Positions 1-13,822 of a stretch of DNA of 64,000 nucleotides are shown one piece after another. Source of the stretch: Oscillospiraceae bacterium (GTDB taxonomy: Bacteria; Bacillota; Clostridia; Oscillospirales; Ruminococcaceae); assembly GCA_022793675.1 (NCBI GenBank), contig JAAWDH010000041.1, positions 62,001 through 126,000 on the forward strand, in the 5' to 3' direction. Under the pieces are notes generated by a model. It was given only the letters and a program-made list of their open reading frames with translations, was not told where the DNA came from and searched no databases. The position numbers were made by a program, and so were the translations under genes. Positions within the stretch are counted from its first letter, which is position 1, and the number at the start of each line of letters is the position of its first letter.

Positions 1-3000
1 ATCCAGGGTAATTTCGTCGCCTTCCGGCCTGCCGTCCTTCAGCAGTTGGACAGTGACAGCAGGTTTGACGCCTGTGTAATCGCTGCCGTCCTCGGCTTTC
101 CATTCCTTCAAAACCGAGATATTGGTGGTCTTGGCTTTATAGTAATGGTTGACAACGACAGCCGAAGTATCGCTTTCAAAGGTACCTGCCCCATTGACAA
201 TTTCTTGAAGTTTGTAGCCTTCAACGTTGCTGTCAGGTTCGGTGATTTCATAAGCCATGCCTGCAGGGATACCGCTGATTGTGAGTTTTTCGCCCGCTTT
301 CAGATAGACGTTGTAAACGCCTTCCCCAACATAAGGACACGGCTTAACAGGCTCGGTAACTTTGCAATCCTCCGCAACTATTTCGTCGCTGCTGCCAAGT
401 TTAACCTGGATAAGGAATTCTGGCGTATCCTCAGGCTTAACGCTGCTGTCCTCGTACCAGACTTGCTTTTCAACAGTCAGGTCGCAGCTCTCTATCTTGT
501 TATGGAAATTAAGGATGCCATCCTCAACTTTTTCCTCGCCCAAGCATACCTCTACCTTATCAATAACTTTCGCGGTTATTGTAAAACCATCCTGTTCGAC
601 CTTAATCACATTTTCCTGAACCATTACTTTGACAGTATACTCCTTCTGGTCGTATATCACGCCAGTAATGGGGGTTTCCTGGTTTTCGCGAACGATAAAG
701 ACGTTCTCTCCTACCTCAAGCACGTTTGCAGGGATTTCAAGGGCCGCTTCAGCGGGCTTGCCGTCTTCAGCAGCAGTGTTTTTCACGCTGGCAATAACTT
801 TGCCCTTTTTCAGCAGTTCAAACGTAAACTCGCCGGCTTTCAAGTCACGCCCGGTAAGGGTTTTGTTAAGGGTCAGCTTCGCGCCTTCGCTATTTACCGA
901 TTCGCCTTCTTTGCCCAGTACCAAGACGCCGTTAGTAGCGATGCCGCCGCCATGAGTGTTTGTCGATTTGTTGCCCGTGATAATAACGCCTTTGGTTCTG
1001 CAAATAGTTTCAGCCTTTTCTTTGCTTTCCTCGATTGGGTTAGCTGTCAAAGCCAAAAGGTTTTTAGCAGAAATAGCGCCGTTATCCTTCAAGGTAACCT
1101 CTGTAAATTCTTTGCCTTTGGCGTCGTTTTTCCAACCTGTCCAGTTAGCTAGGCCGCCGCCAGCCATGCTATTGCTGACGATTGCGCCCGCCTTCCCATC
1201 GTTATCGCGTGTACCTGCGCTGAAAACGTCTGTAGCGGATTCTTTAAAGTCGGATGCATCTTTCCACTGTTCGTAGCTATCAACGCTGTAAGGTTTGTTC
1301 TGCACTTTCATAGAAAAACTCTGCACATAACCTTCTGTCTCGGCAGTGTTTTCATATGCAGCAACACCATCAATGGAAAGCAGTGCTACATGGCCATGGA
1401 CGCAGGCAGCAATACCGCCGCCTAAACCGTTGGCGTAGTTCTTAGTGACTAAAGCGTTTGTTAGGTGAAGGGAGGAACTATTTTCGACATAGATACCGCC
1501 GCCGCCTAAGTCTTCACTTGTGTGGGTCTCATTATCGGTGATGCTGCCTCCAGAAATCGCATTGCCTGCATTATTGCTGGCAATATAAATACCGCCGCCT
1601 TCGCCAAGATTGGCAACGTTTCCGCTGACATCACCGTCGGTCATTACAAACTTGCCGTTATAGACCGTCCAGGATGAGCGGTCCACAGTAGTACCTACAA
1701 ACACGCCGCCGCCTTCGCCAGCGCCGTTTGCGTTTATAGAGCCACCGGACAGGTTAAAGACACCATGCCCAGAAACATAAACGCCGCCACCCTGACCCAA
1801 TGGACGGTCATAAATACAACCCTTGTCTTTGGTTCTATAATAAAGATAATAAGGCCACCAGTCAGCACCCAAGTTGATATTTCCGGACCCGCGATAAATG
1901 GTGTGGTTATTGCTGATTTCGCCGCCGTTCATTGTAAAAGTACCGCTTTTTACATAAACGCCTGCGCCGGAATAATCAGCCGAATCATAACCTGGGGTGG
2001 AGCCGACAGCTGATGGTTGAGTCTGATCATACCACGGCGTACCTTTATAGTTATCAGCGATAGCGCCGCCATCCATTGTGAATGTGCCGCCGTCAACAAC
2101 AATCAAAGAATACTTGTTGCGTTTAACGTCCTTATTGTCCAGCGCGGTATGGCCATTCAGCTCATCACCGTAGCCCTGCAGCTTACCCTCGCCGACAGAA
2201 TCGGTCAGGGTAAATTTTTTCTTAACGGTAAACATCGGGCCAGCAGGCTCGTTGTCGCCATAACTGATGGTATGGCCATTCAGATTCAACTCAGTTTCCT
2301 GATTGATAGAAAGATTGCCTTCGCCGCTGATATCAGCGCCCAAAGAAATGGGGCCGCCTGTGCTAATAGCTGCTTTCAATTCGTCCCAAGTTGTTATATT
2401 GTTAACATCCAGCAGCTGAACCGTTGATGTTACCACGACTTTCCACTCCAGGGTCACCATTTCTGGCTCTGCGGGAGTTTCGGGAGCGGTTTCGTCCGCA
2501 GTATCAGCAGGAGCGGCAGGTTCCGGGTCTGTAACAGGCGCGGTTTCCGCTGGGGCTGCGTCTTCCTTGGGGTCAGGCTCGGTGATTTCCTCGGGCGTAC
2601 CGCCTTGGGTTTCATCGAACAGCATCCGGGGCGAGAAAACAGCTACGCCAGCTGCATCATCGGCCACATCGTGGCTTTCATTAGCAGCGCCGTCTTCGCC
2701 CGCAGGGGCGTCAACGTCGCCTTCGCCCTCAGGAACTGTGTCCGCAGGGGGCGCAGACTCAGAAGGCGCCTCGTTGGATTCCTCAGAAAAAGCTTCGCTG
2801 GATTCCTCAGAAGAAGCTTCGCTGGATTCCTCAGAAGAAGCTTCGCTGGACTCCTCAGAAGAAGCTTCGCTGGACTCCTCAGAAGAAGCATCGCTGGATT
2901 CCTCAGAAGAAGCGTCGCTAGACTCCTCAGAAGAAACGTCGCTGGATTCCTCAGAAGAAACGTCGCTGGATTCTTCAGAAGAAGCTTCACCCGACCCCTC

Positions 3001-3495
3001 AGGCAAAATAGGTGTGCTAGGCTCAAGGGATTCAGTTGTTTCGGGCCTTTCGAAAGTATAGGTTACGACGGCTTCTCCCATTGGGCCTTTCGGCTCGTTG
3101 AAAGTGGCGTTACCCTCTCCGTCAATTTCCATGATAGGAGTACCATCCGCCCAGTTCCCCTCGGCAGCCCAGACGCCGTCAAGCGCCAAACCGCGCCATT
3201 CAGCGTATTTCTCCGCATCAAAAGTCGTATCGCCGTTCAGCAGCGAAGGGCCAAAACCCATAAACTGCTCCTGCAGCGGATAGGACATTTCCATCCCTGC
3301 AAGTTCTTCCGCGCTTGGAAGCGGGACAACAACATCGGCGTCTTCCGGCAAACCGCCAGCCAATCCGCCAATAGCCATTGTGTCATCAAAGCCTTCGTCT
3401 GAAGCGAATGCCGTGATTTGTGAAAAACTCAGGCTTACCGTCATGGCAAGCGCCATCGCAAGGCCGCGCTTGCTGAGGTTTTTCCATTTTTTCAT
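1..3495 (-). CDS. Large secreted surface adhesin, 3' end beyond the left edge
   Basis: The reading frame is open from the ATG at 3495 to base 1 (1165 codons) with no stop, so the C-terminus and any sorting signal are missing. The start has an AAGGA ribosome site 9 bases away; the ATG two codons earlier is too close to it. Residues 1-31 form a signal peptide (MKKW, hydrophobic core, AFA cut site). Residues 169-243 are 8-residue Ser/Glu repeats, followed by a Pro/Ala/Glu-rich stretch to about 350. Residues 360-860 are Gly/Asn-rich with recurring GGGVYV and GGGIYI motifs, typical of a right-handed parallel beta-helix. From 871 there is a Spy0128/FctA-like pilin domain (AKLTLNKTLTGRDL, FTFELLK), then a similar domain near 1003, and the start of a Cna-B domain near 1117 (ISVLKEWKAEDG), all of which commonly form isopeptide bonds. 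This is a cell-surface protein, probably adhesive. Its leader carries c-di-GMP riboswitch elements, which suggests control by sessile/motile signalling. Confidence 0.85.
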   Translation of the reverse strand, partial: MKKWKNLSKRGLAMALAMTVSLSFSQITAFASDEGFDDTMAIGGLAGGLPEDADVVVPLPSAEELAGMEMSYPLQEQFMGFGPSLLNGDTTFDAEKYAEWRGLALDGVWAAEGNWADGTPIMEIDGEGNATFNEPKGPMGEAVVTYTFERPETTESLEPSTPILPEGSGEASSEESSDVSSEESSDVSSEESSDASSEESSDASSEESSEASSEESSEASSEESSEASSEESSEAFSEESNEAPSESAPPADTVPEGEGDVDAPAGEDGAANESHDVADDAAGVAVFSPRMLFDETQGGTPEEITEPDPKEDAAPAETAPVTDPEPAAPADTADETAPETPAEPEMVTLEWKVVVTSTVQLLDVNNITTWDELKAAISTGGPISLGADISGEGNLSINQETELNLNGHTISYGDNEPAGPMFTVKKKFTLTDSVGEGKLQGYGDELNGHTALDNKDVKRNKYSLIVVDGGTFTMDGGAIADNYKGTPWYDQTQPSAVGSTPGYDSADYSGAGVYVKSGTFTMNGGEISNNHTIYRGSGNINLGADWWPYYLYYRTKDKGCIYDRPLGQGGGVYVSGHGVFNLSGGSINANGAGEGGGVFVGTTVDRSSWTVYNGKFVMTDGDVSGNVANLGEGGGIYIASNNAGNAISGGSITDNETHTSEDLGGGGIYVENSSSLHLTNALVTKNYANGLGGGIAACVHGHVALLSIDGVAAYENTAETEGYVQSFSMKVQNKPYSVDSYEQWKDASDFKESATDVFSAGTRDNDGKAGAIVSNSMAGGGLANWTGWKNDAKGKEFTEVTLKDNGAISAKNLLALTANPIEESKEKAETICRTKGVIITGNKSTNTHGGGIATNGVLVLGKEGESVNSEGAKLTLNKTLTGRDLKAGEFTFELLKKGKVIASVKNTAAEDGKPAEAALEIPANVLEVGENVFIVRENQETPITGVIYDQKEYTVKVMVQENVIKVEQDGFTITAKVIDKVEVCLGEEKVEDGILNFHNKIESCDLTVEKQVWYEDSSVKPEDTPEFLIQVKLGSSDEIVAEDCKVTEPVKPCPYVGEGVYNVYLKAGEKLTISGIPAGMAYEITEPDSNVEGYKLQEIVNGAGTFESDTSAVVVNHYYKAKTTNISVLKEWKAEDGSDYTGVKPAVTVQLLKDGRPEGDEITLD
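2769..2988 (-). repeat. 24-bp tandem repeat inside the adhesin gene
   Basis: About nine head-to-tail copies of a 24-bp unit encode SSEESSEA or SSEESSDA/DV. The most 3' units on the coding strand are nearly identical at DNA level, while the outer ones have single substitutions. The period is a multiple of three, so gain or loss of units would change linker length without breaking the frame. Confidence 0.9.
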
Positions 3496-3540
3496 GCTCA
3501 TTCTTCCTTTCTTTGCTAGGATATTCGGATGCAAAGTATC

Positions 3541-3624
3541 CGGCGGCCGGGCTGGCATAGTATCTTCCAACACATTAGCCCCCATAGCTTTGCGTCCCGC
3601 CATTTCTGACGGTTTGCTAATCAA
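3541..3624 (-). promoter_or_regulatory. c-di-GMP-I (GEMM-I) riboswitch, gene-proximal copy
   Basis: Read on the minus strand this has the class I core in order: GCAAACC, a hairpin CCGUCA-GAAA-UGGCGG with a perfect GAAA tetraloop, GGGACGCAAAGCUAUGGGGG, then ACUAUGCCAGCC, matching the tetraloop-receptor side of known clostridial members. The base before CAAACC is G, which fits c-di-GMP rather than the A found in the cAMP-GMP variant. Immediately downstream, CGGAT/ATCCG can form a small hairpin enclosing CUUUGC, which could instead pair with GCAAAG next to the ribosome site; this is a plausible translational switch but inferred. Confidence 0.85.
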
Positions 3625-3631
3625 TTAGCAG

Positions 3632-3718
3632 CTGAACCAGCGCAGCCTAGACGCATAAAACCGCCGGAGTAGCCTCCTTGGCTTTACGTCCCATAACTTC
3701 TCCAGTTCGCCAATTTCC
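3632..3718 (-). promoter_or_regulatory. Probable second c-di-GMP-I-like riboswitch (upstream, tandem)
   Basis: A second copy lies 8 bases upstream of the first in the same leader. It shows GGCGAACU, then GGGACGUAAAGCC followed by AAGGAGGCUAC, and a 3' arm CUAGGCUGCGCUGGUU. The G before CGAAC is again the c-di-GMP type. The GAAA tetraloop hairpin is less regular than in the downstream copy, so this one is either diverged or degraded. The order and spacing of the conserved blocks match GEMM-I. Confidence 0.6.
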
Positions 3719-3895
3719 AATCTGTGCGCCCAGCGCACGCCATGCTTTCTCTCCCTTTGCGGCGCTCCGCCTGCCGGATTGCCCGCGATAAAATTCCTCC
3801 CTTCATAATCCAGTTGTTCATTGCGGCCTTTTTATGTCAAACCCTCACGGGCAGGCATACATAGCAGCAAACTCTGCTAGCCATCCGGCAAAGAT

Positions 3896-3925
3896 AAAAT
3901 ATGTGAAGGCTCCGGTTTTTGTCAA
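3896..3925 (-). promoter_or_regulatory. Sigma-A promoter for the adhesin
   Basis: On the minus strand TTGACA (3920-3925) and TATTTT (3896-3901) are separated by 18 bases. Transcription from about 3889 gives a leader of nearly 400 nt that contains both riboswitch elements. The intervening leader stretch 3719-3889 holds no coding region that I can support. Confidence 0.75.
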
Positions 3926-8379: not shown

Positions 8380-10203
8380 TCAATCCACTACGTTTGTAAC
8401 GTCTTCAGCAGAACCGGTTTCAACCAGAGTATACAACTCCACAAGGCGCGTTTCATTGTTGCACCACTCATAAGTCACATTGCCTTCTTCATCGGTTAGC
8501 TTGAACTTTTTATAACCTTCAGGGAGGGTAACGATGCTTTCAGCGGAGCCAGAAACGATTTGATAATCGCGTCCACTAAAAGTGGTGTTAGATGCACTTA
8601 AGGTCGAAATGCTGTCTTCTTCAAAATCCATCCTGACCTTTGTTATTGAGGAATTTATTATTTGTGCAGTTGCATTTTCAAGATACAGATTAGACTTTAT
8701 AGAGTCTGCTTTCAAAGTAGAATTTTTAACCTCTACAGAGGGAAATGACATATCCTCAATTTGAACGATTGCTCCATCTTGAATAGATACAAGAGCTTTG
8801 TCACCATCTTCCCAATCATTGGCTTTGTACCATGAACCAAACCCTTCAAGAATAATGTTGCGGTTTATAATTAATTGATTTTTAAACGTCATACGCTTTT
8901 CTGTATGTTTGCTTAAAATAGTATCAATATTAGGATCAGCTAGCGCATCGCGGACTTCTTGTTCGCTTTTAACAGTTGCAGTTGTATTAGGCAAGGCACC
9001 TAATTTAATATTAGCACGACCATAACGGATAAGGTCTTCCACAGTAAATCCAAGTAAGGTAGTGCTTTTTCCATCTTCTGATATTTTTAATTGTAATTTA
9101 ATGCGGTCAATACCTATTTCAAAATTTCCAAAGATAACTGTTATAACTCCTGTTTCTTCATTTTTCTCAACTTTCTGTAACGATGCTAATACCCAACCAT
9201 AATCTGATGTTTCATCTTCTGGATAATAATACATACTACCGAAAATTTTTGATATATCTTGAGATAGCCCGCTAACAGATATAGTCATAATCCTCAAACC
9301 ATTTATTTTAATACATTGACTAACATATGTCCGCCCAAGATAGAAAGAATCACCCCAATAATAACCTTCATTAGGTATAAATACAATACCTTCTGCAATT
9401 TCATTATAGGTGCCATTTTCTACATAAAATTCATACTTTTGGCCCGTAGACGAACCGCCGCCTGACGAGCCGCCAGTATTACCACCTGTCGAGCCACCAC
9501 CAGTCGACCCTCCGCCTGCAGAACCGCTGCTGGAGCTGCCTCCGCCGCCGGTCGAGCCGCCGCCGCCAGCTGAGCTGCTGCTTTCAGAAGGCGTTACCGT
9601 TTTCCCTGTCGTATCAAAGGCTTTTTCCGCGGCAGGCTTACGATAGCCGGTCGCTTCGCCGGTTTTTTCCGAGAATTTGTAAGCCTGGCCGTCGATTTCG
9701 ACGGTGCCAGTGACCATCGCGCCGTCATCGTTCAGATAGTAGGTCTTTCCATCGACCTGGATCAAACCGGTCTGCATCTCGCCGGAATCCTGCAGAAAAT
9801 ATTTTTCCTTGCCGACGGTCACCCAGCCTTTTGCCATCGCGCCGGTGGCGGGCGCCATATAGAACCATTCGTCATTCGACTTCACCCAGCCGCTGCTCAT
9901 CGCCCCGCTGGACTTCAGGTGGTACCATTCCCCCTCGATTCTCTGCCAGCCGGTTTTCATCGCGCCGCTGCTGTCCAAATAATACCATTTTCCAGCATCT
10001 TTGACCCATCCGGTCTGCATCGTCCCGTTCTGGTCAAAAAAATACCAGCGCCCGTCGATCTGCTTCCAGCCGGTCTGAAGGACGCCGTTTTCTGACCACT
10101 GCCAGCTGCCGGATTCATCTTTCTGCCAGACCGCCGAAACGCTTGCGGGCACCGAAACTGCTACTGCAACTGCCAGCAATGCTGCCAATAACCTTTTTTT
10201 CAT
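8380..10203 (-). CDS. Secreted cell-wall/choline-binding-repeat protein
   Basis: 607 residues. The frame is open further upstream, but MKKRLLAALLAVAVAVSVPASVSA is a signal peptide with GGGAGG ahead of it, so the ATG at 10203 is the start. After cleavage there are about seven CW/glucan-binding repeats of about 20 residues (GTMQTGWVKDAGKWYYLD type), then a Gly/Ser-rich linker near residues 205-250, then about 350 residues without a clear family assignment. Its end (residues 460-590) has short alternating strands with Asn and Ser turns (FKNQLIINRNIILEGFG), suggesting beta-helix. It should attach non-covalently to wall polymer. Base composition drops sharply after the linker (8400-9450 is AT-rich), which suggests a transferred C-terminal module joined to native repeats. 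Confidence 0.8.
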   Translation of the reverse strand: MKKRLLAALLAVAVAVSVPASVSAVWQKDESGSWQWSENGVLQTGWKQIDGRWYFFDQNGTMQTGWVKDAGKWYYLDSSGAMKTGWQRIEGEWYHLKSSGAMSSGWVKSNDEWFYMAPATGAMAKGWVTVGKEKYFLQDSGEMQTGLIQVDGKTYYLNDDGAMVTGTVEIDGQAYKFSEKTGEATGYRKPAAEKAFDTTGKTVTPSESSSSAGGGGSTGGGGSSSSGSAGGGSTGGGSTGGNTGGSSGGGSSTGQKYEFYVENGTYNEIAEGIVFIPNEGYYWGDSFYLGRTYVSQCIKINGLRIMTISVSGLSQDISKIFGSMYYYPEDETSDYGWVLASLQKVEKNEETGVITVIFGNFEIGIDRIKLQLKISEDGKSTTLLGFTVEDLIRYGRANIKLGALPNTTATVKSEQEVRDALADPNIDTILSKHTEKRMTFKNQLIINRNIILEGFGSWYKANDWEDGDKALVSIQDGAIVQIEDMSFPSVEVKNSTLKADSIKSNLYLENATAQIINSSITKVRMDFEEDSISTLSASNTTFSGRDYQIVSGSAESIVTLPEGYKKFKLTDEEGNVTYEWCNNETRLVELYTLVETGSAEDVTNVVD

Positions 10204-10238
10204 GTCAAAACCTCCCGATTTTCTTTGCTGCATTCCGT

Positions 10239-10382
10239 CCGAAAAGTGTACCTTTCGGTCGATTTCTTTCTGTCCTTCTGGGAAAGACCTTTGAAAGAAT
10301 TCAGCTGCTAAATCAGGAGGTTTCCGTAAATCTGTATACTCTCCACGGACAGAATCTGATGACCGAAAAGTACACCTTTCGG
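10239..10382. repeat. 144-bp element with 36-37 bp inverted ends, each end itself palindromic
   Basis: The left end (10239-10275) and the reverse complement of the right end (10347-10382) share CCGAAARGTGTACYTTTCGG, then TC, a diverged 8-9 bases and CTGTCC: about 30 matches in 36. Each 20-mer is also a hairpin, CCGAAA-N8-TTTCGG, and the right one is extended by TCTGATG/CATCAGA (10355-10392). The loops read GTGTAC and GTACAC, which are complementary. No target-site duplication is visible. It lies between the promoter at 10427-10455 and the start codon, so it is part of the leader RNA. It could be a MITE-like insertion or a structured regulatory RNA. Confidence 0.75.
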
Positions 10383-10426
10383 CAACATCAGAGCGCACTC
10401 ACCCTGCCCGGGAAATCCTTTTATTT

Positions 10427-10455
10427 ATTATACCATAGCTTTTGTGGATTTGCAA
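10427..10455 (-). promoter_or_regulatory. Promoter for the choline-binding-repeat gene
   Basis: Minus strand TTGCAA (10450-10455), 17-base spacer, perfect TATAAT (10427-10432). The predicted leader of about 215 nt includes the whole inverted-end element. Confidence 0.8.
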
Positions 10456-10525
10456 CCAATCTAAATGGTTAATAGTGAAATTTTTTCCTGCTTATTTTTG
10501 TCAATTCTGACGGTGATCTAAACAA

Positions 10526-11434
10526 TCAGCCCCAAAAGCTGCCGCCCGACGATAAAAAGGCGCGCGTGCTGGCAAAAAGTTCCTCAACGGGGCAGCCGGC
10601 GACCGTCCCGCCCAGCGCTTCTTTGAGGCTGCCGCTTTCCATCATCTGTAAAACCTCCGCCCTAGCGTTGGCGGCGGCGCTGGCTGCCGCCCAGTCCGAC
10701 AGCTGCAGCTTATGGGCAATCTGGTCCTCTGTCCGGCGACGCATATATTCCGCCTGCCTGGACATCCGCAGATCCCACCAGTCCGTGCTGTCCTCACCGC
10801 TTGTAGAAAAAGTGATCCTCCCATGGCTGAAGGACTGGGCGTTGGCAATTTCGCCGTCGGCCCCAATGGCGATAGCACGGGAACTTCTGGCGCTGATCCC
10901 TGGGATCATTGCTTCGTTGCGCAGCTGGTCAAAAGTAAACCAAGCGTCAATCCGCGCCATGATCTCCTTGGCATATGCGGGATTTTCCTCCATCCGCTTC
11001 TGGACATCGGGATGGATGACGACCGCAGTCATGCCGCTGGGAACCCCCTGCAGCGCTCGAATTTCCTTTGGGGCGGTAAATCTGCCGTCTATAGAGCCAT
11101 AGAAGGGGTTGGGGCCGCTGGGCCTCCAATTTTCCAGCTCCTTTGCCGCCGCATCTCCCTCCTGGTAAAGCAGGTAATGGGGATAGTCGTTGCGGGTGCG
11201 CCAATAGCTGCTGCTGGCGTCAAAGACATGGTAAACGACATTCCCGTATTTTTCTTTGAGCATTGATTCTAACGAAACCGCGCTGGTCCCCTCAGTTTTT
11301 TCTGCTTCAGATGCAGCGGACGCTCCAGCGGCTTTTATCGCCTTTTCCAGAAAACCGCCTGCCTGCGCGCTGGCAGTTTTTTGAGCCTGCATCCAGGCAG
11401 AATAGGGATTGATGATTCCATTTATTGTATTCAT
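10526..11434 (-). CDS. DUF6033-like protein of unknown function
   Basis: 302 residues from the ATG at 11434, which has GGAGG eight bases upstream; the TTG at 11449 has none. No signal peptide or membrane segment. The N-terminus (MNTINGIINPYSAWMQAQKT) begins like proteins that list Asn-rich short motifs, followed by an Ala-rich helix. The middle (NVVYHVFDASSSYWRTRND) and MTAVVIHPDVQKRMEENPAYAKEIMARID match my recollection of DUF6033. It is the last gene of the LytTR operon, 15 bases after the 111-codon gene. The family assignment is from memory and no activity can be inferred. Confidence 0.65.
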   Translation of the reverse strand: MNTINGIINPYSAWMQAQKTASAQAGGFLEKAIKAAGASAASEAEKTEGTSAVSLESMLKEKYGNVVYHVFDASSSYWRTRNDYPHYLLYQEGDAAAKELENWRPSGPNPFYGSIDGRFTAPKEIRALQGVPSGMTAVVIHPDVQKRMEENPAYAKEIMARIDAWFTFDQLRNEAMIPGISARSSRAIAIGADGEIANAQSFSHGRITFSTSGEDSTDWWDLRMSRQAEYMRRRTEDQIAHKLQLSDWAAASAAANARAEVLQMMESGSLKEALGGTVAGCPVEELFASTRAFLSSGGSFWG

Positions 11435-11449
11435 CTTCAGCACCTCCAA

Positions 11450-11755
11450 CTAACCCAACAGCTGTAACAAGAACGCTGCGCCTACTGCTCCGTCAAGCCC
11501 CAGCTGCTTGCGCTCCCAGAGCATCTTTTGCAGCTCCTCAAGCTTTTCCTGGCGTTCCTGCCGCAGCTCCCAAGCGTCTTTCTCATCCTGTTTCATTACC
11601 TTATCCATCGGCAGCGCCACTGCGTCCTCCCGGACGCTTTTCCGCGCAGCAGCAGCCGTCATCGCCAAGAAGCGGCTGTTGCTTCTGCCGCCCTGTATGG
11701 CGGGAAGGGATACTTTCCCCACCCTACTGGCCTGTTCAATCCGGTTCACCTTCAT
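11450..11755 (-). CDS. Uncharacterised charged protein in the LytTR operon
   Basis: About 100 residues. The ATG at 11755 overlaps the end of the kinase gene by 20 bases; AGGAG is only two bases before it but eight before the GTG two codons on, so the GTG may be the real start. The N-terminal third is basic (RIEQASRVGKVSLPAIQGGR). Residues 55-85 are a Lys/Glu-rich predicted coiled coil (ELRQERQEKLEELQKMLWER), and the end is a short hydrophobic Gly/Ala/Leu tail. I recognise no family. Its tight placement between the kinase and the DUF6033-like gene suggests a shared function. Confidence 0.7.
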   Translation of the reverse strand: MKVNRIEQASRVGKVSLPAIQGGRSNSRFLAMTAAAARKSVREDAVALPMDKVMKQDEKDAWELRQERQEKLEELQKMLWERKQLGLDGAVGAAFLLQLLG

Positions 11756-13091
11756 TGCTCCTTTCTTGCAGCAAAACTGTTGCACAAAACCGCTGGCCCT
11801 CCGTCCGGATGGTCAGCCCGCCCATATACCGTTCAGCCTCCTGCCGCACCAGCAAAAGCCCCAGCCCATGCAGCGCCGAGTCCTTTTTGGTGGAACAGGG
11901 CAGGCCCTGTTCGCCTGGAAGGATTTTCCCATCAAAAGGGTTTTGGGCCTCAATCAGGAAAAAGCGTCCCTTCCGGCAGCCGGAAAGAGTCGCCTCCCGG
12001 CGCTCTGGCGGCAATTTTTCACAAGCTTCCAAAGCGTTTTGCAAAAGGTTATCTAGAATAATCCCTAGGCTAAAGGGATCGTACCCTGCATTGGATGGGA
12101 AATGAACGGCGACTTTTAAAAAGGTCTGCTGACTGGCGGCTTGGCGCTGCCTGCTGCCGACCACCGCATCCAAGACGGCGTTCCCAGTCTGGACTGTCGG
12201 AGACGGAGCTTCCCCCTGTTCCCCGAGCTTTGCCAGGTACTGTTTCAAAGCGCCGTACTCTTCAGCCGCCGCCAGTCCCTGCAGCACCGCAAGATGGCTG
12301 CGGAACTGATGCTGTTCTTGGCGAAGGCTATTGTAGGATTCTTCTGCGCAGGCAAGCCGTTCGGCAATATCCGCCGCCTTAACCCGCTTCAGCTGTTCCT
12401 GCTGCAACGCAACCGCCCGCTGTCTGGCGGCGACAGCAAGCAGGCTGCCGCAGATAAAAAGCCCCGCCATCAGCGGCACCAGCGCCAGGAAAACCGGGTG
12501 TGCGCCGTAAAGCTCATAAACCGCCCCGTCCCGCACCTCAAACAGCAGCTTCGCCACCATATTGCCAAACAGGATCCCCAATGCTGGGACGAGACAAAGC
12601 CCAGCCACCGCACTGGGGCCCAAAGCCAGCGGCCCCTTTGCCAACCTGCGCCTGAAAAGCCATAAAAACAGGACTAGAAAAGCCAGATACCCGCCCAGCA
12701 GCAGCGAAACATTTCCCGCCGCCGCCCGGTAAATAACCGCAGGGTTATCAGGAGGAGGCTGCCGCCCCGCCAGATAAGAAAGGCAGCCCGCCGTCACCGC
12801 AGCAGCGCTCTTGGCGCTGTAAAAAAGCGCTACCGCCAGCATCCCTGCTGCACGGTTAAGCCCCAGCTTTCCAGCCGCCAGCGCCAGCATCAGCAAAACC
12901 AACGGCAGCGAAACCATCCTGCCGCCGCTGATGAAACAGCAAGCCAGGTACCCGCAGCCGGCAGCAAGCAGCCGCCCCACCGTCCTTTTCTCGAAAAAAG
13001 CAGAGACAAACGCCGTGAAGCCTACTCCCGACAGCACCGGCACAAACCCGCTTACCAGCCGGCCGAAAAGTAAAAACTCCCCTTCAGCCAT
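11736..13091 (-). CDS. AgrC-like membrane sensor histidine kinase
   Basis: 451 residues. The N-terminal half (about 1-235) has six to seven hydrophobic segments. A coiled linker leads to HQFRSHLAVL near residue 262, which aligns with the HDxxNHL phosphoacceptor box of the AgrC/CitA-type HPK10 kinases, with Gln in place of the usual Asp. The N-box is ILDNLLQNALEAC and the G-box HGLGLLLVRQ, a GHKL ATPase. It overlaps the upstream response regulator by 8 bases, so the two are translationally coupled. HPK10 kinases usually sense peptides, but no AgrB or AgrD-like gene is present here, so the signal is unknown. Confidence 0.88.
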   Translation of the reverse strand: MAEGEFLLFGRLVSGFVPVLSGVGFTAFVSAFFEKRTVGRLLAAGCGYLACCFISGGRMVSLPLVLLMLALAAGKLGLNRAAGMLAVALFYSAKSAAAVTAGCLSYLAGRQPPPDNPAVIYRAAAGNVSLLLGGYLAFLVLFLWLFRRRLAKGPLALGPSAVAGLCLVPALGILFGNMVAKLLFEVRDGAVYELYGAHPVFLALVPLMAGLFICGSLLAVAARQRAVALQQEQLKRVKAADIAERLACAEESYNSLRQEQHQFRSHLAVLQGLAAAEEYGALKQYLAKLGEQGEAPSPTVQTGNAVLDAVVGSRQRQAASQQTFLKVAVHFPSNAGYDPFSLGIILDNLLQNALEACEKLPPERREATLSGCRKGRFFLIEAQNPFDGKILPGEQGLPCSTKKDSALHGLGLLLVRQEAERYMGGLTIRTEGQRFCATVLLQERSNEGEPD

Positions 13092-13794
13092 TGCCGCCCT
13101 CCCGGCGCAGGAATTCCGTATAGGCTTCTACAAAAGCCGGGTAACGGTGTTTGGCAAGGGGAAGCTTTTCGCCGTTTTTCAGCACAACCTCGCTGTGGCT
13201 GTAGGCCTGGATATGCCATAAGCTCACCAGGTAACCCTTATGGATACGGAAAAACTGCCCCTCAAGCTCGGCTTCCAGCACCTTCAGCCGGGTGTAGCTG
13301 CTAAGCATCTCCCCCTGCATATGTACCACCGCCCGATGGTTGCTCCCCTCGATATAGCGGATATCCCGGATGGGGATGGTACGGCTGAGGCTGCCAAGCC
13401 GCAGCGTTAGCATACGCCCGGCGTCTTTCCCAGCAAGCCGGCTTTGGGCCCTGGCAAAGACTTCGGCAAAACGCCGCTCGTCAATCGGCTTGAGCAGGTA
13501 CTGGAAAGCCCCTACGTCAAAGGCATCGGACACATACTCTGGATGCCCGGTGACAAACACAACCAGCGGCCTTTCCCCGCCGCGCTGCCGCAGCTTCCGC
13601 GCCAGCGCTATCCCGTCCGGCTCGCTGCCAAGGCCGATATCCAAAATCACCAAATCGGCATCAGCGCCTCGCAGCAGGCACTCCGCCGCCGAAGCGCAGC
13701 CTGATACCTGCCAGCCGGGGGCTTGTTCCTTAACCAGCCTTTCCAGGTATTCCCGAACCTCCTTCTCATCTTCACAGATTACTGCTTTTGGCAT
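13084..13794 (-). CDS. LytTR-family response regulator
   Basis: 236 residues from the ATG at 13794, with GAGGGG six bases upstream; two earlier in-frame ATGs lack spacing. A receiver domain has the acidic pair after AVICEDE and the phospho-Asp in LVILDIGLG, and Lys in LLKPID. The C-terminal LytTR DNA-binding domain spans about 135-236 (IPIRDIRYIEGSNHRAVVHM, FFRIHKGYLVSLWHI). The pair forms a two-component system with the overlapping kinase. Targets are unknown. An 11-bp palindrome sits 28 bases upstream of the start. Confidence 0.92.
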   Translation of the reverse strand: MPKAVICEDEKEVREYLERLVKEQAPGWQVSGCASAAECLLRGADADLVILDIGLGSEPDGIALARKLRQRGGERPLVVFVTGHPEYVSDAFDVGAFQYLLKPIDERRFAEVFARAQSRLAGKDAGRMLTLRLGSLSRTIPIRDIRYIEGSNHRAVVHMQGEMLSSYTRLKVLEAELEGQFFRIHKGYLVSLWHIQAYSHSEVVLKNGEKLPLAKHRYPAFVEAYTEFLRREGGNG

Positions 13795-13822
13795 ATCCAT
13801 CCCCTCAATCCTCATTATCAGA

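Follow-up and report, generated by a model that had tools for sequence, protein, structure and literature searches.

Head-to-tail GEMM-I aptamers with a putative shared expression platform ahead of clostridial surface-protein genes

The leader of an LPXTG surface-protein gene

Analysis of a 64,000-nucleotide window from an Oscillospiraceae genome revealed, on the minus strand, a gene for an LPXTG-anchored surface protein preceded by two abutting GEMM-I-type aptamers, a compact hairpin and a Shine-Dalgarno sequence (Table 1). Counted from its second ATG, the gene has 1655 codons, and its product contains FctA, DUF7601, SpaA and two Cna_B domains and an LPXTG-type anchor. The original prediction of tandem GEMM-I-type aptamers ahead of a surface protein is borne out by one intact and one eroded copy and by the anchored product. 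Of the giant beta-helix adhesin that it named, the large LPXTG surface protein stands; the beta-helix has no Pfam match, although GGG/GGA-rich rungs do repeat. Upstream of the leader on the same strand, positions 8383-13815 encode a choline-binding-repeat surface protein and a pair consisting of a GHKL kinase and a LytTR regulator.

Table 1. Features of the leader and the gene that it precedes (window coordinates)
Feature	Position	Strand	Basis or remark
LPXTG surface-protein gene	1..3495, continuing past the window to C8:60528	minus	start taken as the second ATG, 3493-3495
Shine-Dalgarno AAAGGA	3505..3510	minus	sequence; 9 nt 5' of the second ATG
GCAAAG, core mimic ahead of the Shine-Dalgarno, S2 partner	3511..3516	minus	RNAalifold pairing
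Platform hairpin S1, CGGAU-ACUUUGC-AUCCG	3526..3542	minus	in all 5 genome leaders and about 100 relatives
Platform strand CUUUGCAUCC	3527..3536	minus	9/10 complementary to the aptamer core; CUUUGC complementary to pre-SD GCAAAG
Proximal GEMM-I aptamer, intact	3539..3628	minus	RF01051 match, 66.9 bits, E 6e-11
Conserved core GGACGCAAAG of the proximal aptamer, putative first partner of the platform strand	3588..3597	minus	
Weak inter-copy hairpin GCUAA-UUGA-UUAGC, includes A3618	3616..3629	minus	-2.2 kcal/mol; some relatives only
Eroded upstream GEMM-I copy with discriminator G3711 and core GGACGUAAAG at 3682-3691	3629..3721	minus	lineage covariance model
Putative core-masking hairpin in the eroded copy (3680-3690 with 3650-3665)	3650..3690	minus	minimum-energy fold
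Promoter-like site TTGACA / CATATT or TATTTT	3896..3925	minus	consensus scan only, 10/12 matches

The proximal copy scores well above the RF01051 gathering cut-off of 35 bits and has, by alignment and sequence, the G21-C46 pair, a GNRA tetraloop on P1b and C3543 at the position of Vc2 C92. The GAAA tetraloop and the GGGACGCAAAGC motif cited earlier for a c-di-GMP-I-like aptamer are both present. In the RF01051 alignment, however, model position 11, equivalent to Vc2 G20, is occupied by A3618 (context UUAGCAAACC) rather than by the c-di-GMP-selecting G, and A is the base that characterizes GEMM-Ib at this position. The expectation of a G in each copy therefore held for the eroded upstream copy and failed for the proximal one, which, because of this replacement, we class as a GEMM-I aptamer of unproven ligand. 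The suggestion that the upstream copy may have another ligand shifts on the same point to the proximal copy, on which the altered discriminator sits.

The upstream copy gave no match in the RF01051 search proposed as a check, even at E<=10. A lineage-specific covariance model (R1), built from 24 related aptamers and run with filters off so that every position was scored, placed it at 20.4 bits (E 4e-5), with the next-best place in the searched kilobase at 5 bits. It is the weakest copy seen with this model, the other listed copies scoring 31-94 bits. Its P1b (tetraloop) helix is broken, C46 is replaced by U and its core is locked into a different hairpin, so that by its sequence it is an eroded GEMM-I homolog falling short of the RF01051 cut-off, in agreement with the earlier suspicion of decay. 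The hairpin that may mask its core has a z-score of -2.1 and was equalled in stability by 6 of 200 shuffles, which is suggestive only. We also considered whether the eroded copy, through UCCGGCGG, pairs at long range with CCGCCGGA of the proximal copy, and dropped the idea because the ensemble probability is 0.

Two further details of the predicted layout were revised. The copies are 0 nt apart instead of 8, and the hairpin between them, supposed to trade places with pairing to the ribosome site, is weak and found in only part of the relatives. The strand that appears to trade places lies instead 3' of the proximal copy, at 3527-3536, and its partners are either the aptamer core or the pre-Shine-Dalgarno GCAAAG. 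Because the upstream copy is eroded and its core self-masked, and the last copy and platform are intact, control in the window probably rests on the A20 aptamer alone, as a one-copy switch, unless regulation has been lost.

Related leaders and the order of their discriminator bases

A search of the 2.73 Mb host genome with RF01051 found ten aptamers in five leaders, all of which are tandem once the eroded copy of the window is counted: a triplet on contig C3 and doublets on C8 (the window), C18, C30 and C56. All five end in CGGAW-ACUUUGC-DUCCG, followed by 8-11 nt, GCAAAGAAAGG and the start codon, and since the aptamer alone served as the query, the search did not impose this platform. In copy order, the base at position 20 is G,A,A for the C3 triplet, G,U for the C56 doublet, G (eroded),A for the window and G,G for both remaining doublets. 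The other four host leaders (L011, L012, L013 and L014 on contigs C3, C30, C18 and C56, respectively) are packed arrays with the same platform ahead of LPXTG-type or similar surface genes.

A pattern search for the platform in about 85,000 species genomes returned 104 stretches, almost all from Oscillospiraceae or Lachnospiraceae and many from mouse gut; five that lack an aptamer (L081, L089, L126, L145 and L174) look like chance matches. At nearly all of these loci, two to five aptamers are packed upstream with linkers of about 0-10 nt, followed by one shared platform and a gene for a secreted surface protein, and no terminator or second platform was found between the packed copies. Of the downstream genes covered over a sufficient length, nearly all begin with a signal peptide, mostly KRGLALFLALVMCLSML..AFA, and the genes checked carry LPXTG anchors (NF033073) and SLH, MucBP, Cna_B, thioester or VWA domains.

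The bases at position 20 are ordered along the arrays. Among the 83 arrays with at least two copies, G stands in the first copy of 82, and the last copy carries A (49 arrays), G (24), C (nine) or U (one). Grouping at 72% identity gave 24 groups, 17 running from G to A, three from G to C and four from G to G, with none reversed. In 30 aligned leaders the fold of the last copy is kept, with 94.4% of cells in standard pairs compared to 79.4% after shuffling; 19 of its 27 pairs have changed on both sides, a signal destroyed by sliding the partners. G21 and C92 are invariant whatever the base at position 20, with one row (L132) that may have U at 92. By these alignments the last copies are not decaying, and the change is essentially confined to the discriminator. 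The inter-copy hairpin was rejected as a general reason for A20: it is found in only part of the arrays, N20 is unpaired in many A20 and in nearly all C20 junctions, and the four copies of L144 read G,G,G,A despite having the same flank.

Several individual leaders depart from the common pattern. L255 (L255:90-420), outside the 83-array set, has A20 and then G20 in copies about 150 nt apart, and a different clostridial leader (L225:364-865) has three widely spaced GEMM-I copies with A, A and G, the reverse order. L154 resembles a form of L151 in which recombination of copy 2 with copy 3 would have removed one copy and thereby turned the last copy from A20 to G20. Last copies with C20 occur in L083, L094, L097, L113, L138, L165 and L171 with pockets that are otherwise intact; we are not aware of a ligand for GEMM-I aptamers with C20.

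As a control, other tandem GEMM-I leaders of the same family that lack the platform, found through Rfam, have long spacers and end in G20, and several have terminator-like sequence after each copy. A20 as such is not rare in clostridial GEMM-I, as it occurs in 13 of about 105 other aptamers (about 12%; spurious rows set aside by eye). A model of the last aptamer plus platform splits the family sample into platform-type leaders (the host genome, G063, G299, G182 and a variant in G083) and others. Since only the host genome exceeds 74 bits with this model among 391 genomes of the class, the design is patchy, and it was not found in the same-genus relatives searched.

A candidate shared platform, its ligand and rival readings

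The platform strand has two pairing options. As CUUUGC-N-UCC, it pairs at nine of ten positions with the core GGAC-GCAAAG in most first, middle and last copies. Alternatively, it is predicted to pair with CGGA at the aptamer end and with the pre-Shine-Dalgarno GCAAAG, a hexamer that the core also contains, giving an H-type pseudoknot of classical geometry (S1 of 5 bp, loop 1 of 1 nt, an invariant S2 of 6 bp and loop 3 of 5-14 nt). RNAalifold chose the CUUUGC-GCAAAG pairing in 30 of 30 leaders, the presence of GCAAAG having been part of the search pattern. Because S2 and most of S1 are invariant, and the pattern itself required both, the pseudoknot cannot be confirmed from covariation. L255, detected by its aptamer, has kept both CUUUGC and the pre-Shine-Dalgarno GCAAAG and has lost the S1 hairpin.

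For the proximal aptamer and platform of the window, the unconstrained fold is the anti-aptamer form at -37.0 kcal/mol; the aptamer plus S1 has -32.3 kcal/mol, being 4.7 kcal/mol costlier with ligand, tertiary contacts and S2 not counted. Of 99 leaders folded without constraint, only 35 form the anti-aptamer helix, and in one third of shuffled leaders the platform strand finds nine of ten pairs somewhere. The base N of the platform is G in 12 of 19 leaders with an extra core base and in 5 of 79 otherwise (p 3e-7, which sequence relatedness may explain), and this G would tune the anti-aptamer helix. An anti-Shine-Dalgarno in the platform loop was rejected, the accessibility of the Shine-Dalgarno (0.756) differing too little from that with shuffled loops (0.801). 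A strand against the core is likewise not a general GEMM-I device, as exact complements of at least 9 bases to an aptamer's own core were found outside this platform in only two of about 110 aptamers (L066 and L246). Terminator-like stems of L066, L240 and L246 contain an aptamer-core complement, an anti-aptamer use outside this platform.

At the level of sequence, we regard as established the anatomy, its repetition ahead of about 100 surface genes, the conserved fold of last copies and the ordered way in which the discriminator changes. What they do together is a proposal in which our confidence is evenly divided: that several head-to-tail GEMM-I aptamers share one expression platform, forming a translational riboswitch that works by anti-aptamer strand exchange. 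The platform strand would act as the anti-aptamer strand. As long as a copy is unbound, the strand would pair with the core of that copy (GGACGCAAAG in the proximal aptamer of the window); once the copies are occupied and their cores buried, it would pair with the core mimic ahead of the Shine-Dalgarno and, together with hairpin S1, close the pseudoknot. With the same core present in all copies, a single unbound one could be enough to retain the strand; release would come only at full occupancy, and output should therefore follow joint occupancy in a steep, all-or-none manner.

We somewhat favor a sign in which the ligand-bound form turns translation off, since the apo form showed no convincing anti-Shine-Dalgarno: the unbound form would leave the ribosome site open and the bound form would crowd it. 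Class I switches of C. difficile likewise turn their genes off (PMC11477304). Bound as on is the less probable sign by our estimate, yet RNAalifold on the 30 leaders additionally joins the GG of the Shine-Dalgarno to C92-C93, which would favor it (apo off, bound on). The ligand would most likely be c-di-GMP, with A20 or C20 last copies as lower- or different-affinity sites that may set a second threshold or input. In its fullest version, which we put forward only tentatively, two to five GEMM-I aptamers with position-dependent ligands, c-di-GMP first and another cyclic dinucleotide last, would compete for one anti-aptamer strand as a multi-input device reading joint occupancy.

Rival readings differ mainly in what they assign to the last copy. 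We consider it unlikely that the arrays are two-input gates, with c-di-GMP as the ligand of G20 copies and 3',3'-cGAMP as that of A20 copies, as in GEMM-Ib, leaving only the cGAMP-type copy intact in the window. The G,G,G,A series of L144 on one flank and the confinement of the change to the discriminator, with C92 and the fold kept, would fit such a division, as would the cGAMP preference that A20 marks in Geobacter and Desulfobacca (PMC9481103, PMC6456294). In Desulfobacca, however, c-di-GMP affinity was only slightly reduced in the A20 variant (PMC9481103), and against this reading there are also the frequency of A20 elsewhere in clostridial GEMM-I and the nine C and one U last copies, which cGAMP does not explain. 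A source of cGAMP was not apparent either. The guanine-recognition position of GGDEF domains is Asp in ordinary cyclases and Ser in Hypr enzymes, and the Hypr route was rejected when no Ser/Thr variant was found among about 30 GGDEF domains of 12 array genomes. In the window genome, the sole full-length GGDEF has Asn and no SMODS cyclase was found. This GGDEF (L068; G000:C18:9978-10424, minus strand) belongs to a protein that also has receiver and HD-GYP-like motifs and carries its Asn in GHAFGNEVL, where all other GGDEF domains examined in array-bearing genomes have Asp.

Less probable still is that the last copy has become independent of a ligand and serves only as a support for fold and platform, the first, G20-fixed copy being the sensor. 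Ghost aptamers of this kind are known from singlet glycine riboswitches, and a discriminator fixed in first copies and free in last ones is what such a role would leave; against it, the pocket residues G21, C46 and C92 of the last copies are conserved, N20 excepted, and in the window the first copy is the eroded one and the last is intact. We also find it very unlikely that these are ordinary tandem c-di-GMP-I riboswitches, each acting alone, with platform details of no special meaning. This is the commonest tandem class, with 347 doublets and 12 triplets, entered as multiple-platform (PMC9481103), yet here the linkers are short with no terminator or platform between copies, one platform is conserved across two bacterial families, and the order of discriminators is non-random. 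Just as unlikely is a window leader that is a decaying relic with no regulation left. Its upstream copy, the weakest seen, and the same-genus relatives searched, which lack this leader type, might suggest this, but the proximal copy and platform of the window reach 123.1 bits, the highest leader-model score at any place searched. The shared platform with strand exchange remains the reading that we prefer.

Significance and comparison with known systems

As far as the literature searched shows, packed c-di-GMP-I copies with one platform and ordered discriminator bases are undescribed. One survey enters c-di-GMP-I tandems as multiple-platform (PMC9481103), and a 2025 survey treats them as complete units, adjacent aptamers being typical of glycine riboswitches (PMC12452182); against these complete, independently acting units, the roughly 100 leaders described here pack up to five aptamers per platform. 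They offer a natural test bed for the wiring of several RNA sensors to one output, apparently in an undescribed way, and for whether clostridial A20 and C20 aptamers read a messenger other than c-di-GMP. They also sketch a set of LPXTG and SLH surface proteins, encoded by gut commensals that often come from mice, as a regulon under putative second-messenger control.

Comparison with known systems places the leader closest to c-di-GMP-I riboswitches (RF01051), with which it shares the fold of the proximal copy, the tetraloop, the G21-C46 pair, C92 and a position in the 5' leader of a surface-protein gene. In contrast to that class, the intact copy of the window has an A discriminator, and its platform would exchange the aptamer core for a pre-Shine-Dalgarno copy of it. 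Like the Bc3-5 triplet of B. thuringiensis, the arrays place several c-di-GMP-I aptamers before one gene, but in Bc3-5 every aptamer comes with a separate terminator and works as an ON switch in its own right (PMC4759541), whereas here packed copies share one platform. The GEMM-Ib aptamers of Geobacter and Desulfobacca (PMC6456294, PMC9481103) have the same replacement of G by A at position 20; the present arrays differ in that no Hypr cyclase was found in the 12 array genomes, in starting with G20 and in ending in some cases with C or U. In C. difficile, adhesins of another member of the Clostridia are under second-messenger control, but there the two c-di-GMP-controlled adhesins have class II ON switches, class I being transcriptional OFF switches (PMC11477304), whereas the leaders here are GEMM-I. 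Tandem glycine riboswitches resemble these arrays in having adjacent homologous aptamers on one platform and eroded, or ghost, copies, of which the window has one, and the arrays differ from them in belonging to another aptamer class, in reaching five copies and in varying the discriminator by position.
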